Assembly (NCBI GenBank): GCA_947632695.1
Contig: CANRQC010000003.1
Coordinates: 1 to 36,857, forward strand
From: an uncultured Oscillospiraceae bacterium
GTDB lineage: Bacteria > Bacillota > Clostridia > Oscillospirales > Oscillospiraceae
Direction: 5' to 3'
DNA: 36,857 nt
Shown in pieces: positions 11,684 to 21,095 of this stretch. Position 1 is the stretch's first letter. Each line of letters starts with the position of its first letter. A program made the position numbers and the translations under genes. A model generated the notes under the pieces. It made no database searches. It saw only the letters and a list, made by a program, of their open reading frames with translations, and was not told where the DNA came from.

Positions 11684-11979
11684 ATAGAAAACGAATTCGG
11701 CGCACTCCGCCTCTGTTCAGAATTTGCGCCGCGGTAAACAAAGAAAAAATCCCTTTCGCAAAGAGCGCAAGCAAATAGGGAAGGAAAGCTGCTGTTCGCC
11801 GCGGGGGTCAGCCCCTCTACCCACACGCCGTTTCCTCTCCGGCCCTTTCCAGCCCTTTCCGCTTCTATCCGCTTGTGGGTCAGGGTGTGGGTCGGCTGTC
11901 CGGCCCTGCCAAAAACCCGTATCTTTTCCCCCAAAAAGGCAACAAATATCCCGGAAATCATGGGATTTCCGGGATATTT

Positions 11980-12007
11980 TGGAGCTGCTAGCCAGATTCG
12001 GACTGGC
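11980..12007 (-). repeat. Partial copy of tRNA-Thr 3' end (att-like remnant, copy C)
   Basis: TGGAGCTGCTAGCCAGATTCGGACTGGC, preceded on the left by hairpin CCCGGAAATCATGGGATTTCCGGG. Confidence 0.85.
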
Positions 12008-12147
12008 TACCGGTCTCCCGCAAAGCTATGCTTTGCGGGAACCCTCACGACCTCCGATTGAATCCCCGCTTCGCGGGTGGGGTGAGGTCGCCAGTCCCTG
12101 CCCGGAACAACAGAAAACTCGCGGAAGTTTCCCCCGCGAGTTTTTTT

Positions 12148-12192
12148 TGGAGCTGCTAGCCAGATTCGGACTGGCGACCTCATCCTTACCAA
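12148..12192 (-). repeat. att repeat, left end of integrated element (copy A of tRNA-Thr 3' end)
   Basis: 45-bp direct repeat of 21020-21064 with one mismatch (12169 G vs 21041 A). Confidence 0.93.
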
Positions 12193-12314: not shown

Positions 12315-12359
12315 CTCAATCCTTTTAGCCTGTTGCTCAATCCTTTGCTCAATCCTTTT
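12315..12359 (+). repeat. Three CTCAATCCTTT repeats (putative arm-type Int sites, left)
   Basis: CTCAATCCTTTT at 12315, CTCAATCCTTTG at 12336, CTCAATCCTTTT at 12348. Confidence 0.8.
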
Positions 12360-12378: not shown

Positions 12379-12420
12379 AAAAAGCGACGCCGGGGAGGTC
12401 CCCCAGCGCCGCTATTTTTT
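12379..12420. terminator. Bidirectional terminator-like hairpin at integrase 3' end
   Basis: AAAAGCGACGCCGGGGAGGTCCCCCAGCGCCGCTATTTTTTT. Confidence 0.65.
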
Positions 12421-13616
12421 TATCCGACCTGTGTTTTGAGTGCGTCCCTGACCGTTTGACCGGCCCGCCTGATAGATTCTGCATTTGCGTGGCTGTACAT
12501 CCGCAACGTGACCGCCGTATCACTATGCCCCAACCGTTCGCTGACGGAAACCACGTCCGCGCCGTTGGTGATGCCGATACTTGCCGATGTATGCCGGAGT
12601 TTGTGCGGGTGGAAATCCTCTATGCCATACTTCTCCCCAAACTTCTTAAAATACCTTGTTGGGCTTTGCGGATGCAGCGGCTCCGCTGTCCCGTCTTGCG
12701 TGAAGACCCATTTTGAGATGCAGGAATGGGCTTGCCCCTCCCGGAGCTGTTTCAAGAGGGCCAGCGTTTCCGGGCCAATGTCCACTACACGGGTTTTCCC
12801 GTTTTTGGGAGTTGTTTCATATACCCCTGTCGTGGCGGTATATTGCAGATTGCGCCGGATCGTGACCGTGCCGGAATCCCAGTCAATATCAGCCCATTGC
12901 AAGGCACACAGCTCACCCCTCCTGCATCCGCTGTCTGCGGCAAGATTGATATATACCCTCCATTTTAGCGGCTCTTGCTCCGCACAGGAAAGCACGCGGG
13001 ACAGCTCCGCAACCGTGAAAGCCTTGCTTTCTTCCTCTTGTATGCGCTCATCCTTGCGGGGTGCAGGCCGCTTGACCTTCAACATGGGATTCATGACGAT
13101 TGAATCGTCTAAAAATGCCATCTCAAACACGCCGTTGAGAATATTGTATAGCTTGACTGCTGTGGCGTGGGCATATCCGGCCTTTTGGAAGTCTACCAGC
13201 AGCTTTGTTATCATTGCCGGGGAAACATCCGTTAAGAGGAAATCTCCCAGTGTGGGGAGAATGTGCTTATCAAGGAACATTCGATAGCTGGATCGTGCAT
13301 TTTCTGAAAATGTGGCCTCTTTTGTGGGCATAAACACGCCATTGGCATATTGAGCCACCGTTTTGAGCTTTGCGGCCTCTGCGGCCTCCTGGGCGGTTTT
13401 CTCTCGCTCCTGGGCACGGTTTAGGACTTCCCCATTTTTGCAGGCAAGCTCAAATGCGGCCGCCTGCTTTGCGGCCTCTCTCTCCGCCGTCCGTTTGCTC
13501 CAGCCGTCCGGCCAGTACCAGCGGGTTTTATATGGGGCCTTGCCATATCCACGGGAAACGCAAATTTGAAAGAACCGGCGACCGTCTTTTGTTTCCATTA
13601 ATTTAGTGCTTGCCAT
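12420..13616 (-). CDS. int: Tyrosine-type site-specific integrase
   Basis: SAM-like N-terminal core-binding domain, GCRRGELCAL, HKLRHTSAS, LGHSDTAVTLRMYSHA; adjacent to att repeat. Confidence 0.95.
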   Translation of the reverse strand: MASTKLMETKDGRRFFQICVSRGYGKAPYKTRWYWPDGWSKRTAEREAAKQAAAFELACKNGEVLNRAQEREKTAQEAAEAAKLKTVAQYANGVFMPTKEATFSENARSSYRMFLDKHILPTLGDFLLTDVSPAMITKLLVDFQKAGYAHATAVKLYNILNGVFEMAFLDDSIVMNPMLKVKRPAPRKDERIQEEESKAFTVAELSRVLSCAEQEPLKWRVYINLAADSGCRRGELCALQWADIDWDSGTVTIRRNLQYTATTGVYETTPKNGKTRVVDIGPETLALLKQLREGQAHSCISKWVFTQDGTAEPLHPQSPTRYFKKFGEKYGIEDFHPHKLRHTSASIGITNGADVVSVSERLGHSDTAVTLRMYSHANAESIRRAGQTVRDALKTQVG

Positions 13617-14193
13617 CGTGATCCCCTTCCTTTCGTAACATTTCAACGGTGCTTGAAATGACTTTAGCGGACAAGTTAGCAGCTAATGCCTCAGATATTT
13701 CTTTCGATGAATGGTTTTGAAATCTGTCATCACCTGGGATTTTCAAAATTTCCTCTTTTGGGTCTGGAGCTTGCACACATTCAAAAATGACATTTAGGAG
13801 GTGGTAAAAAAAGTAATTGCCCAAAAGAGCATTTAGGACAACACGCCTATCATCATTGTGCTTATCTAAAGCCCGTTGCAAACATCCGATTGCATTTTCT
13901 GAAAGGCCAGTTGTCTTACAAGCCCCCTGTATATCCTCATTCACCGTTTTTGTACCGGTTCTACCAAGCAGATAATCAACCGATACATTATAGAAATCTG
14001 CGATTTTGCAAAGATTTTCAAGCGAAGGGCGCGAGATACCCAACTTATATTGATTTATCGCTTGTGCAGAAACATCTAAATATTTTCGTAGTGCGTCGCT
14101 GTCAGTAATTAAACCAGATAACCGGCTTGCGAGGGGTGCCGATTGCTTTTCTGCTACATCCATTTCCGAAGTAGCATTCTTTTTTCTGCCCAT
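13603..14193 (-). CDS. HTH XRE-family repressor (CI-like)
   Basis: LRKYLDVSAQAINQYKLGISRPSLENLCKIADFYNVSVDYLLGRT; start MGRKK with GGAGG RBS. Confidence 0.88.
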   Translation of the reverse strand: MGRKKNATSEMDVAEKQSAPLASRLSGLITDSDALRKYLDVSAQAINQYKLGISRPSLENLCKIADFYNVSVDYLLGRTGTKTVNEDIQGACKTTGLSENAIGCLQRALDKHNDDRRVVLNALLGNYFFYHLLNVIFECVQAPDPKEEILKIPGDDRFQNHSSKEISEALAANLSAKVISSTVEMLRKEGDHDGKH

Positions 14194-14290
14194 AATAACC
14201 TCCAATGTCAAGTTTTACTTTCAACTTATCAAAATGCTAAATTATCGCTTGCTTTTTCTGGCCCTTTGTGCTATCCTAACATCAAGAAGC

Positions 14291-14373: not shown

Positions 14374-14574
14374 ATGCAAGTGACAGAAACTAAACAGGCT
14401 ACCCCGTTCATGAAAATCGGAGCGGCCAGCAGGGCCACCGGCTTGTCGCAGTACTTTTTGCGGCAGGGGTGCAAGGACGGCACTGTTCCCCATATCAAGA
14501 GCGGAACCGTGTACCTTGTGAATGTCGCCAAGCTACTGCGACAGCTTGACGCAGAAGGGGGTGCAATGGAATGA
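14374..14574 (+). CDS. Excisionase-like / MerR-type HTH small protein
   Basis: 66 aa, MKIGAASRATGLSQYFLRQGCKDGTVPHIKSGTVYLVNVAKLLRQL. Confidence 0.75.
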   Translation: MQVTETKQATPFMKIGAASRATGLSQYFLRQGCKDGTVPHIKSGTVYLVNVAKLLRQLDAEGGAME

Positions 14575-14963
14575 ACAAAATAGAAACTCCCACCGGCGCG
14601 GCAACGTCGGCAGGAGCGAGGGCGGAAAGGACAACCGGGCAGGCGTCTATTTCCTTTACTTATTCTAACACAACTGCGGCCCACGGTCAACCTTTAATCG
14701 CTGACTTTTTGGGCCATGACAGAGAAAGCGCCCGCAAGGGCTGGGAACTGTGCGCCGCACTTCACATGGACAGCCGGACACTACGGCAGCAGATCGAGCG
14801 GGAGCGCAGAGCCGGGGCGCTAATCGTTTCAGACAACAAAAATGGCTATTGGCTGACCGACGACCCGGCAGAGGCCCAGGCGTTTGCCCGTTCCATGCGT
14901 CACAGGGCGCGGCAGATTGTCAAAATTGCACAAGCCGTTGAAAGGGGCGCTGGCCTTGACTGA
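14571..14963 (+). CDS. Hypothetical protein, possible winged-helix replication accessory
   Basis: 130 aa in operon; central HMDSRTLRQQIERERRAGALIVSDNKNGYWLTDD winged-helix-like segment. Confidence 0.6.
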   Translation: MNKIETPTGAATSAGARAERTTGQASISFTYSNTTAAHGQPLIADFLGHDRESARKGWELCAALHMDSRTLRQQIERERRAGALIVSDNKNGYWLTDDPAEAQAFARSMRHRARQIVKIAQAVERGAGLD

Positions 14964-15582
14964 TATTTTTCGAGAAGTCAGAGAGCGCCTAAACATGGAG
15001 GACGTGGCCCGCCACTACGGGCACGAACCCAACCGGGCCGGATTTCTTTGTTGTCCGTTTCACCGGGGCGACCGAACCGCCAGCCTAAAGCTCTATCCAG
15101 GCGGGCGTGGCTGGCACTGTTTTGGATGTAACCGAGGCGGGAGTGTGATAGACTTTGTGGCTCTTGACCTGGGACTTTCTCCCCTAGATGCCGTCAAACG
15201 GCTTAATACGGACTTTGCCCTGGGCCTACCCATTGACCGGCAGCAGACCCCCGCAGAGCGCCGGGAGGCCGAACAAGCGGCCCAGCGGCGGCGGGAAGTA
15301 GCTGATACTTACCGCGCCTTTGAACAGTGGCGAACCGATACCATCAACAGATTAAATGCTTGCTTTCGTGGAGCGCACCTGTTACAGATTTCCAGCCTTG
15401 ACCGGCTGACCGAGCGGGAGGCGCTGGCACTACGGGAACAAGCTACCGTTGAATACTTCTCCGACCTTCTATCATTTGGAACACTAGCGGAGCAAGTCGC
15501 GGTTTTCCGAGATAGGAAGGAGGTGGAGATCCTTTGCAACAGGATTTTACCCAGTACGCCGATGAAATCAGACGTGGCTTGA
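14956..15582 (+). CDS. CHC2 zinc-finger (DnaG primase type) protein
   Basis: CCPFHRGDRTASLKLYPGGRGWHCFGCNRGGSVIDFV; TTG start overlapping previous stop. Confidence 0.87.
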   Translation: MTDIFREVRERLNMEDVARHYGHEPNRAGFLCCPFHRGDRTASLKLYPGGRGWHCFGCNRGGSVIDFVALDLGLSPLDAVKRLNTDFALGLPIDRQQTPAERREAEQAAQRRREVADTYRAFEQWRTDTINRLNACFRGAHLLQISSLDRLTEREALALREQATVEYFSDLLSFGTLAEQVAVFRDRKEVEILCNRILPSTPMKSDVA

Positions 15583-16703
15583 TAGAGGACGCAACCGCAC
15601 CGCCTCCAGAGGCAGAACCGCCGAAGCCGTCACTATCTACCATCTCCGCCGCTGACCTCCAGCGCAAGGCCATACCCCCGATTCGTTTCATTGTGGACAA
15701 GCTCTTGACCGTGGGCCTTAGTATTCTGGCCTCTCCGCCGAAATATGGCAAAAGCTGGATGGTACTTGACCTGGGCTTGTCCGTGACCACAGGAGGGCGT
15801 TTCCTGGGTTACCAGACCAACAGAGCCGAGGTTTTATATCTGGCTTTGGAGGACTCCGAGCGGCGGCTAAAGGCCCGTATGTGCAAGCTGCTGGCCGGAA
15901 AACCGGCCCCCGCCGGATTCCACTTTGCTACCACGGCCCACGACGCAGATAACGGCCTGTTTGATGAATTGGAGGGCTTTTTGAAAGACCACCCGGACAC
16001 AGGTTTAATTATCGTTGACACCCTCCAACGTGTACGGGGAATCGCCCACGGTAAAGAAGGGGCTTATGCCGCCGATTATCGGGAAGTTGGAGCATTAAAG
16101 GCGTTTGCAGACAGTCACAATGTGGCCCTTCTACTTGTCCACCATCTACGGAAGATGAAGGACGACAGCGACCCGTTCAACATGATTTCCGGCACCAACG
16201 GTATCATGGGCGCTGCTGACACTACGATGGTTTTGTCAAAAGAGAAACGGGACGACGAAAACGCCACCTTGTCTATTGTGGGCCGGGACGTGGAGAGCGC
16301 CGATGCGGTGTTACACTTTAACCGGGATTCTTGCAAATGGGAAAATCTGGGTGATGCCGATTGGTTTGCAGAGCAACAGGCCCGCCGAGAGTATCAGGAA
16401 AGCCCCACAGTTAAGACCATCAAAAAATTATTGGCACAGTCCACGGATGGGGAATGGGGTGGGACAGCACAACAGCTACTTGACGCCGGTACATATATTG
16501 CCCGCACACGTCTGGCCGCGTCTGCCCGTGACCTGACCAGCCAACTCAAACAGATGGACAAGCTCCTGTTTGAGTACGACAACATCATCCACGAAAGAAA
16601 GAGCAATGGCACCGGCGGCGGGAAACATTTATTCTACTATGGCAACCTTGCCCCGCTTGAGGAAATGGAGCCAGACGAAAACAACCCGTTTCTACCCACC
16701 TAA
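15534..16703 (+). CDS. RepA-like AAA ATPase/helicase (AAA_25 type)
   Basis: Walker A-like ASPPKYGKSW, Walker B LIIVDTL, LLLVHHLRK motif. Confidence 0.85.
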   Translation: MQQDFTQYADEIRRGLIEDATAPPPEAEPPKPSLSTISAADLQRKAIPPIRFIVDKLLTVGLSILASPPKYGKSWMVLDLGLSVTTGGRFLGYQTNRAEVLYLALEDSERRLKARMCKLLAGKPAPAGFHFATTAHDADNGLFDELEGFLKDHPDTGLIIVDTLQRVRGIAHGKEGAYAADYREVGALKAFADSHNVALLLVHHLRKMKDDSDPFNMISGTNGIMGAADTTMVLSKEKRDDENATLSIVGRDVESADAVLHFNRDSCKWENLGDADWFAEQQARREYQESPTVKTIKKLLAQSTDGEWGGTAQQLLDAGTYIARTRLAASARDLTSQLKQMDKLLFEYDNIIHERKSNGTGGGKHLFYYGNLAPLEEMEPDENNPFLPT

Positions 16704-16705
16704 AA

Positions 16706-16818
16706 ACACCGTTGCAACCGTTGCGACCGTTGGAACCGTTGATATATAAGGGCTATTTTGGTAAATCATGTAATTCTTGCAACGATATCAACGAAGCCAA
16801 CGGAACCAACGGGCAACG
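16706..16818. repeat. Two opposed 9-bp iteron arrays
   Basis: 4 x (nnnCCGTTG) at 16706-16741; CAACGnnnn at 16780, 16789, 16798, 16807 and CAACG at 16814. Confidence 0.85.
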
Positions 16819-17300
16819 ATGCCCCCCTAAAAGAAGGCCAAAACAAATGGGCGGCTATCGCCTGGATGTGCAAAAACCAGCTAGGGCGCCGGAATCTGAC
16901 GCCAGAACAGAAAACCTATCTGACCGGGAAACAATACGAAGCTGAACGAAAGACTTCAGGGGGTCAACTTGAAAACAGAAATGCGCAAAAACGAGTTGAC
17001 CAGAGTGGTCAACTCGTTTCGGGAGGAACCACCCGCCAGCGCATGACGCAAGGCGGATTAAAAAACAAAAACAGGGAAGAAGATACTGGCCGATTCACCA
17101 CAAATGACCAGATTGGTCATTTGTGGCAGGACACAACTAGAAAAAAGATTGCAGAGCAATTTGGCGTTGGTGAAGGAACTGTACAGCGTTCGGAATATTA
17201 CTTGCAGGGCCTTGACCAGGCCGAAAGAGGTTGTGGAAGAAAAACATCCGCAACCTCAACACGGAAAAACAATGCAGAAAAGGGCAATTTACCATTCTGA
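16758..17300 (+). CDS. Hypothetical protein resembling C-terminal HTH part of ParB-like/plasmid proteins
   Basis: CKNQLGRRNLTPEQKTYLTGKQYEAERK…TTRKKIAEQFGVGEGTVQRSEYYLQGLDQAE; upstream ParB-like domain absent. Confidence 0.6.
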   Translation: MVNHVILATISTKPTEPTGNDAPLKEGQNKWAAIAWMCKNQLGRRNLTPEQKTYLTGKQYEAERKTSGGQLENRNAQKRVDQSGQLVSGGTTRQRMTQGGLKNKNREEDTGRFTTNDQIGHLWQDTTRKKIAEQFGVGEGTVQRSEYYLQGLDQAERGCGRKTSATSTRKNNAEKGNLPF

Positions 17301-17318
17301 CCAAAATGGTCAAAATGG
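16991..17318. repeat. Three palindromes with TGACCA-N3-TGGTCA core
   Basis: 16991-17017 (12-bp arms), 17098-17126 (13-bp arms), 17292-17318 (12-bp arms, 1 mismatch). Confidence 0.9.
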
Positions 17319-17417: not shown

Positions 17418-17612
17418 ATGTTTTACATCAAAATTGGAAAGAAAAAGCGCAATCTTCGGGAGGACAATATTTATACCCGCTGTCCGATTTGCGGACGTGA
17501 ACACGCCGTAGACCTCCAGGAGATTTTGAAGGGAGGTGACGCCGATTTGTACGGAACATCAGTATATTGCCCGGAGTGTTCCGAGCGGCAAAAGGCAAGC
17601 GACAACCTGTAA
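17418..17612 (+). CDS. Small zinc-ribbon protein
   Basis: CPICGREH…CPECSERQ; AAAGGAG upstream. Confidence 0.7.
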   Translation: MFYIKIGKKKRNLREDNIYTRCPICGREHAVDLQEILKGGDADLYGTSVYCPECSERQKASDNL

Positions 17613-17646
17613 ATTTACAGAAAAGCACAGAGAAAGGGGGGATAAG

Positions 17647-18009
17647 ATGAAAGTATCAGATGAAGCCATCATTGCGGCGGTACTCTCCAACAGCACAAAC
17701 CGGGATGCGGCGAGAGCTTGCGGATTGTCAGAAAAGCAATTTTACACCCGATTGTCACAGCCGGAATTAAAGGCAAAACTTGCGACGGCCCGTACACAGC
17801 TATTAGAGGGCGCGGCAAGCGTCATACAAGCCCGTGTGGGCGAGGCCGTGGAAACTATGGCAAATATCATGCACGACAAAGAAGCGCCGCCACAGACGCG
17901 ATTAAACGCCGCTGACGGGATTATCCGTAACGCCTTGAAGATGAATGAAACGGTTGATATTCAAGGCCAGATTGCGGAACTTAATAGGGCGGTATTCCAG
18001 AATGAATAG
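17647..18009 (+). CDS. terS: Phage terminase small subunit-like protein
   Basis: HTH RDAARACGLSEKQFYTRLSQPELKAKL, helical oligomerisation region; immediately precedes terL. Confidence 0.72.
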   Translation: MKVSDEAIIAAVLSNSTNRDAARACGLSEKQFYTRLSQPELKAKLATARTQLLEGAASVIQARVGEAVETMANIMHDKEAPPQTRLNAADGIIRNALKMNETVDIQGQIAELNRAVFQNE

Positions 18010-19363
18010 TAGTATTGAGAGACAGCTTGCGGCATTGAAACGGGAGATAAAGGCCAGACAGGGCGGCAAAGACGTGTTAGCCAAGCTGGACGTTACCCAG
18101 CATATAGCGCCGGTCTATCTGCCCTTACACGCCGATATAGAGGCCAACAGACACACCGTGTATAACCTCCCCGGCGGGCGTGGCTCTTGTAAATCCTCTT
18201 TCGTTTCCCTTGAAATCGTCAACGGCATTATGGCAGACCCCACCGGCCACAGCAACGCCATTGTGTTCCGGCTTTACGGTAACACCTTGCGGGAAAGCGT
18301 ATTCTCTCAGATCGCCTGGGCCATTGATACCCTGGGCGTGGGCCACCTCTGGAAAAGCCGTATTGCCCCCATGCAATGGGTATATACCCCGACCGGGGCG
18401 CAAATTGTTTTCCGTGGTCTGGACGATGCTAGCAAATTAAAGTCAATCAAGCCCACACGGGGGACTTTCCGCTTCATATGGCTGGAGGAATTTTCAGAGC
18501 TGCCAGGGCCGAACACCCTTAGAAACGTGATGCAATCGGTACAACGCGGCGGCGACACCTTCACCGTGTTTAGATCGTTCAACCCGCCCATTTCAAAGAA
18601 CAACTGGGCCAACGTCTACATACAAGAGCCGGACGAGCGGGCCACAACACTATTGACCGATTACACCATGATCCCCCCGGAATGGCTGGGCGATGCCTTT
18701 TTGTACGAGGCGGAGCGGTTAAAGGCCATCAACCCCACGGCATACCAGCATGAATACATGGGCATACCCACCGGCACCGGCGGCGAAGTCTTCCCCGCTC
18801 TGGAAATCCGGGAAATCACGGACGCAGAAATAACACAGATTGAGTACATTTACCAGGGCCTTGATTTTGGCTTTGCGCAAGACCCAGCCTGTTTTCTCCG
18901 TGTGGGCTATGACCGGCGGCGGGAGGTTATCTATCTGATTGATGAAATCTATCGGAAGGGCATGAGCAACCGCCAGATTGCCGACGCCATCAAAGGGAAG
19001 GGATATGACCGGGCAGAAATGGCTTGGACGGGGCGAGGTTATGAACGTGAACTTGTCCCTGTGATATGCGACAGTGCCGAACCGAAAAGTGTTTCAGACC
19101 TGCGAGACCTGGGCTTGCTTGCCTGGAGCTGTCACAAAGAACCGAACTGCGTTCAATATCGTGTGAAGTGGCTACAACATCGTACAATCGTAATAGACCC
19201 GAAACGGACACCCAACGCATACCGGGAGCTTGTAAATTATTCCTATGAGGCGGACAAAGACGGGAATTTTTCAAGCCTCTTGCCTGACCGTGATAACCAT
19301 TCGATAGATGCCCTTGCTTATGCTTTAGATCGGGTTATCTACCGGCGGGAAAATCCAGCATAG
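18002..19363 (+). CDS. terL: Phage terminase large subunit (PBSX-type)
   Basis: GGRGSCKSSFVSLEIV, FIWLEEFSEL, nuclease GLDFGFAQDPACFLRVGYD; start MNSSIERQ at 18002. Confidence 0.92.
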   Translation: MNSSIERQLAALKREIKARQGGKDVLAKLDVTQHIAPVYLPLHADIEANRHTVYNLPGGRGSCKSSFVSLEIVNGIMADPTGHSNAIVFRLYGNTLRESVFSQIAWAIDTLGVGHLWKSRIAPMQWVYTPTGAQIVFRGLDDASKLKSIKPTRGTFRFIWLEEFSELPGPNTLRNVMQSVQRGGDTFTVFRSFNPPISKNNWANVYIQEPDERATTLLTDYTMIPPEWLGDAFLYEAERLKAINPTAYQHEYMGIPTGTGGEVFPALEIREITDAEITQIEYIYQGLDFGFAQDPACFLRVGYDRRREVIYLIDEIYRKGMSNRQIADAIKGKGYDRAEMAWTGRGYERELVPVICDSAEPKSVSDLRDLGLLAWSCHKEPNCVQYRVKWLQHRTIVIDPKRTPNAYRELVNYSYEADKDGNFSSLLPDRDNHSIDALAYALDRVIYRRENPA

Positions 19364-20888: not shown

Positions 20889-20896
20889 AGGTCCAG

Positions 20897-20920
20897 CTCA
20901 ATCCTTTGCTCAATCCTTTT
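20897..20920 (+). repeat. Two CTCAATCCTTT repeats (putative arm-type Int sites, right)
   Basis: GCTCAATCCTTTGCTCAATCCTTTT at 20896-20920 is identical to 12335-12359. Confidence 0.8.
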
Positions 20921-21019
20921 GAGAAAACCGCATTTTTGACAAAAATCCGTTTTCCATCAAAAAGTTATAAAAACTATAAGAAAAACCACCCAAAACCTTT
21001 AGTTTTGAGTGGTTTTCAT

Positions 21020-21095
<76 letters not shown>

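Follow-up and report, generated by a model that had tools for sequence, protein, structure and literature searches.

Do two facing arrays of 9-bp repeats, lying directly behind a RepA-like ATPase gene, form the replication origin of a mobile element, and which protein would read them? The question arises in a 36,857-nucleotide stretch of DNA from an uncultured Oscillospiraceae bacterium (the window), for which an initial annotation, made from the sequence alone, had proposed a satellite origin. The repeats are present as it described them. The ATPase stop codon ends at position 16703, and the left array begins 3 bp beyond it with four 9-bp iterons on the plus strand (16706-16741), which share the core CCGTTG and follow each other at 9 bp from start to start (ACACCGTTG at 16706, CAACCGTTG at 16715, CGACCGTTG at 16724 and GAACCGTTG at 16733). 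The AT-richer separator of about 38 bp corresponds to a gap at 16742-16779 that is exactly this long and has a GC content of 26%, compared to 51% for the element and 56% for the window, making it a candidate site for melting and loading. The right array (16780-16815) consists of four 9-bp iterons on the opposite, minus strand with the core CAACG (CAACGATAT at 16780, CAACGAAGC at 16789, CAACGGAAC at 16798 and CAACGGGCA at 16807). The additional CAACG unit, CAACGATGC at 16814-16822 on the minus strand, lies out of the 9-bp phase, 7 bp past the fourth unit. The core common to both arrays is CGTT/AACG, and the two right-hand units closest to the gap read CAACGA, not CAACGG.

The strict pattern of four plus four opposed units occurs a single time across the window, and neither this nor a three plus three pattern appeared in 300 dinucleotide-preserving shuffles. 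When the whole window was scanned at lags of 7-13 for tandem arrays in opposed orientation, the site gave the top score of 0.76, with a runner-up at 0.61. Within the 189 contigs of the genome, and allowing up to two mismatches, a three-unit CCGTTG array is found at one location, the 16706 site. The ORF downstream of the arrays contains palindromes of the type TGACCA-n-TGGTCA (16989-17019, approximately 17090-17125 and approximately 17297-17315), one of which is a perfect 14-bp inverted repeat; these are possible operators.

The arrays are part of an 8.9-kb element bounded by a 46-bp direct repeat with one mismatch. The left copy (attL, 12147-12192) duplicates the 3' half of a tRNA-Thr gene, while the right copy (attR, 21019-21064) lies within the tRNA-Thr gene itself (21020-21095, minus strand). 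A tyrosine integrase (12420-13646; Phage_integrase, 4e-29) and an HTH repressor (13603-14211; HTH_3, 7e-9) are encoded leftward on the minus strand. The rightward genes, on the plus strand, begin with a small excisionase- or HTH-like protein of 66 residues (14374-14574), which is named from its sequence and gene order and has a weak match to a PHROG of unknown function, and a 130-residue protein without assigned function (14571-14963). They are followed by a primase-like protein with a DnaG-type CHC2 zinc ribbon (14953-15579; Zn_ribbon_DnaG, 6e-12, and the N-terminal part of NCBIfam dnaG), in which the zinc ribbon was the only DnaG part matched and a TOPRIM domain was not found, and by the ATPase, the putative initiator helicase (15534-16703). 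Beyond the arrays and some small ORFs lie a terminase small subunit-like ORF (TerS, 17536-18009; PHROG 2538, 7e-6; start uncertain), the terminase large subunit (TerL, 17945-19363; Terminase_3, 1e-30) and two ORFs of unknown function. The ORFs tested between the two att sites gave no match to capsid or tail genes. The satellite label is in keeping with this combination of size, direct repeats at tRNA-Thr and gene content, and the sequence fits an integrated PICI-like island in tRNA-Thr, with dependence on a helper as a prediction. In a sibling element (L006) the downstream order is likewise zn87, TerS, TerL and two ORFs.

A 25-bp direct repeat, GCTCAATCCTTTGCTCAATCCTTTT, made up of two GCTCAATCCTTT units, is located near both ends of the element (12335-12359 and 20896-20920) and possibly represents arm sites for the integrase or excisionase. 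A third copy of the tRNA-Thr 3' end, 22 bp long (11979-12000), lies 168 bp outside attL and is perhaps the remnant of another insertion.

Iterons at the equivalent position in homologs were found in all nine of the nearest full-length ATPase relatives on genome contigs (L006-L014, 47-91% identity). The opposed 9-mer arrays start no more than about 45 bp from the stop of the ATPase gene and in two of the nine (L011, L012) overlap it. The CGTT/AACG core is constant among them and the adjoining letters vary (CGTTG, CGTTC, CGTTT, CGTTA). More remote relatives exhibit the same layout with other words, including CGGTYGCGA, GTGACGRTN, GTGACGGGA, GTGACGCAA and GGGTCGATA. Position, 9-bp phase and opposed polarity are thus kept while the words change, which supports the iteron-origin reading of the initial annotation, since this is what is predicted for an iteron origin beside its initiator. 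We scored 101 relatives between positions -240 and +180 relative to the stop, with three units per side and a score of at least 0.70. Opposed arrays with a best lag of 9 were obtained in 47 of these, with a lag of 6 in six and a lag of 7 in one, and in none of the 101 gene-internal control stretches. A simpler earlier test had found significant downstream periodicity at 39 of 99 loci, of exactly 9 bp in 35. Among 80 viral contigs, 27 have arrays at lag 9 and three at lag 8, with none in the control. Helicase and opposed 9-mer arrays occur together on nine viral contigs of 10-12 kb (L182, L184, L188, L191, L195, L197, L198, L200 and L201), a size that suggests satellites.

The layout varies in several respects. 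The number of units ranges from 3 to 9 between loci, and at several loci the reading frame takes in the left array or both arrays just past the winged-helix part of the gene, where they translate to DGSDGSDG-like tails. In 38 of 47 relatives the GC content of the gap is below that of its own locus, but at a mean of 46% GC an AT-rich gap is not universal; a constant AT-rich gap was therefore dropped as a defining feature, being true for the window and a mere tendency in the relatives. Gap lengths at GACG-type loci cluster at 24-25 and 33-35 bp, and those of the window clade include 36 and 46 bp. We make no claim of gap lengths quantized by helical turns, as the loci are related and the step of 9-10 bp is also the length of one unit. 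No array was recognizable in some of the relatives, among them L020 and L021 with about 52% identity.

The arrays are tightly linked to the helicase gene. Across 1.13 Mb of loci, 110 arrays of lag 9 lie within 500 bp of the helicase 3' end and six lie elsewhere, four of them still within about 840 bp; part of these loci was fetched by the array pattern, which partly biases the count of nearby arrays and leaves the rarity elsewhere unbiased. For any other lag, at most four arrays were found near the helicase 3' end in the same 1.13 Mb. A strict GACG pattern matched 46 places in 301 genomes of the family. At 37 of these places a helicase match lies no more than 1.5 kb away; the remaining nine are about as numerous as matches to a reversed control pattern. 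The strict CGTT pattern matched in two of the 301 genomes, in both adjoining this ATPase, and its control matched in none. One 5.3-kb viral contig (L048, IMGVR_UViG_3300028549_001799) carries opposed arrays of GATCGTTTN-like 9-mers (1675-1780 and 2313-2440) that flank an apparent tail tube gene beside a tail sheath-like gene, and no helicase was seen on the contig. It is unrelated to the helicase loci and combines an equal array geometry with a different context.

The ATPase matches Pfam AAA_25 (2e-27; core at approximately residues 30-277) and weakly DnaB_C, and no other Pfam family. Its AlphaFold2 model, built from 12 sequences (its own and fetched ones), has a mean pLDDT of 81 and consists of a RecA-type core and a C-terminal winged helix (approximately residues 290-370) with the order H-E-H-H-E-E, which reached a pLDDT of 90 when modelled alone. 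With the full model, Foldseek retrieved DnaB, Twinkle, RadA and RSF1010 RepA, the RepA structures 1nlf and 1olo giving TM-scores of 0.69-0.71. The C-terminal domain retrieved only generic winged-helix proteins, every match being weak. RSF1010 RepA is also the best PDB match by sequence (1g8y, E 0.01). As modelled, the ATPase combines a RepA/DnaB-like helicase with a winged helix at its C terminus.

As binders of the iterons, the initial annotation had put forward both the product of 14571-14963 and the RepA-like ATPase. The former was rejected and the winged helix of the latter is the likelier reader, because most array loci have no counterpart of the 130-residue protein. Among the array loci compared, no protein other than the ATPase with its winged helix is shared by all, and the genes for the 66-residue protein, the 130-residue protein, the repressor and the CHC2 protein are each absent from many of them. 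At 56 loci, the distance between iterons correlates with that between winged helices (r 0.77) and with that between cores (r 0.73). In partial Mantel tests, which leave some shared ancestry in the correlation, iterons remain associated with the winged helix when the core is held fixed (r 0.36, P 0.0005) and much less so with the core when the winged helix is held fixed (r 0.10, P 0.04). Between the window and its sibling L006, the cores are 94% and the winged helices 83% identical, and the word changes from CCGTTG to CCGTTC/T. This co-divergence supports the proposal that the winged helix, encoded by 16365-16649 on the plus strand (residues 278-372), reads the iterons.

Opposed arrays of one word can also pair with each other, and folding of the region is favorable for RNA (-41.8 kcal/mol, z -4.6) as well as for DNA (z -4.3). 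Selection for such pairing, as a transcript hairpin or terminator or as a cruciform after the ATPase gene, is nevertheless very improbable, given that such folding is shared by any pair of opposed arrays built from one word. In 52 arrays, facing units agree at 0.497 of their variable positions, compared to 0.528 in permuted order (P(perm>=obs) 0.97); pairing slipped by one unit agrees more (0.60), chiefly owing to a single clade in which one letter alternates between A and G. The arrays of several relatives lie inside the ORF, ahead of the stop, which argues against a terminator because it would truncate its own gene. The RNA or cruciform hairpin was rejected on the in-register pairing test and the in-ORF arrays. 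Rfam gave no match near the gathering score, and two sub-threshold microRNA matches were attributed to chance.

Iteron-like arrays also serve partition and repressor proteins, and the element encodes several HTH proteins, so that the arrays could instead be operators, or a partition or incompatibility site, for a small HTH protein of the element. We consider this unlikely: most array loci lack the genes for the 66-residue protein, the 130-residue protein and the repressor, whereas the ATPase is common to all, and the word tracks the ATPase winged helix. Moreover, the arrays come after a gene, and may sit inside it, and are not placed ahead of a promoter. The iterons could still have an autoregulatory side role. 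Hardly any weight is left for a neutral expansion of tandem repeats or a functionless mobile 9-mer. The variable unit number and the arrays of L048 in their unrelated context would agree with it, but over many words and in two phyla the spacing stays at exactly 9 bp and the opposed polarity and the position are retained, and there are almost no lag-9 arrays elsewhere in the 1.13 Mb.

The sequence 16706-16822 is most probably the replication origin of the 8.9-kb PICI-like island, and would be bound by the winged helix of the helicase encoded directly upstream. Exact-lag arrays at the gene end in relatives, on viral contigs and on plasmids support this origin reading, as do the helicase fold with its winged helix and the way in which the word tracks that domain. 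We infer the following sequence of events. The C-terminal winged helix of the helicase would bind the 9-bp iterons, and the facing arrays would position helicase rings on both sides of the AT-rich gap. The gap would then melt and the helicase load itself, after which the primase-like neighbor or the host would begin DNA synthesis in both directions. Replication may be timed to follow excision.

The closest working match among known systems appears to be the rep-ori module of PICIs and SaPIs, from which the locus differs in helicase family and, for the element, in TerL. In the SaPI/PICI pri-rep-ori arrangement, an initiator helicase gene is likewise followed by two iteron sets and an AT-rich stretch (PMC6092414). 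The mirror arrangement, called notable in the initial annotation, is nothing unusual, since in PICI origins an AT-rich stretch is always flanked by two sets of iterons (PMC6092414). SaPI Rep and SCCmec Cch2 each use a C-terminal domain to read iterons that lie directly 3' of their own genes (PMC7581432); the corresponding role of the window protein is a prediction that draws on the co-divergence of winged helix and word. The gene map, with integrase and repressor leftward and the small HTH protein, primase-like protein, helicase, origin and TerS rightward, matches that of Gram-positive PICIs (PMC6092414), and site-specific integration, the integrase with its divergent repressor and the lack of a match to structural genes among the ORFs tested are also in line with a PICI. 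In contrast, known SaPI Reps are DUF927 or D5/primase-C proteins and the window protein is an AAA_25 protein with a RecA fold like that of RepA and DnaB. Its units are phased at exactly 9 bp and, in this type of array, can run in frame within the helicase gene; the helicase-array module also occurs outside PICIs; and PICIs have TerS at most as a packaging gene, whereas the element has a full TerL beside TerS.

For SCCmec Cch2, the isolated C-terminal domain binds repeats directly 3' of the helicase's own gene (PMC7581432). However, Cch2 is a D5-type helicase with three AAGTG direct repeats, and no opposed 9-bp arrays have been described for it. With the RepA of IncQ/RSF1010, the window ATPase shares a RecA-type helicase fold, RepA being hexameric and the window protein a putative hexamer. 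In RSF1010, iteron reading and unwinding are carried out by separate proteins, RepC and RepA. In contrast, one protein appears to combine both activities in the window, where no separate partner is common to the array loci, and the IncQ iterons are 20 bp long compared to units of 9 bp.

The same layout is present on native plasmids and in Actinomycetota. The 8.3-kb plasmid pATHE01 of Caldicellulosiruptor bescii (L111) encodes a protein with Prim-Pol, AAA_25 and winged-helix parts, and ATTCACTCT units with facing AGTGAACRG units lie in frame just past the winged helix, with a score of 0.905. The Tsukamurella plasmid NZ_LR134447 carries AGTGATGAA, AGTAGTGAA and AGTGGTGAA facing TTCACCACT, TTCACTACT and TTCATCACC after a Prim-Pol and AAA_25 protein. 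Data from the pBAS2 shuttle vector were dropped as experimental support, because C. bescii has two native plasmids and the 8.3-kb one with the arrays is pBAL/pATHE01 and not pBAS2. We lean towards regarding AAA_25 proteins that end in a winged helix, together with their opposed 9-bp arrays, as a widespread, undescribed class of self-contained replicon, in which one protein would unwind DNA and pick an origin in or at the 3' end of the gene encoding it, and the word would diversify with the winged helix. No paper on AAA_25 proteins with iterons was found in the open-access literature, and an earlier description elsewhere is possible. The published design of an origin read by its own helicase would recur here with helicases of an unrelated family, in two phyla and on native plasmids as well as on integrative elements and satellites. 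If such a class exists, protein sequence would allow origin specificity to be predicted in both Bacillota and Actinomycetota, for satellites and plasmids as well as for integrative and phage-like elements. Confirmation would provide a straightforward rule by which to locate origins in many uncultured mobile elements of the gut, ready helicase-origin pairs with different words for studying sequence-directed loading of ring helicases, and candidate vector replicons for Oscillospiraceae, for which, to our knowledge, genetic tools are few.

Within the pATHE01 helicase gene (L111, 1741-1915), the in-frame 9-bp iteron-like array encodes a SIHSIHSIHS... stretch, a peptide that may exist only because its DNA is needed. 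Relatives of the helicase also lie near tet(O), tet(W) and Tet(40) in records from Enterococcus, Subdoligranulum and Streptococcus (L112, L113 and L114), which look like integrative elements.
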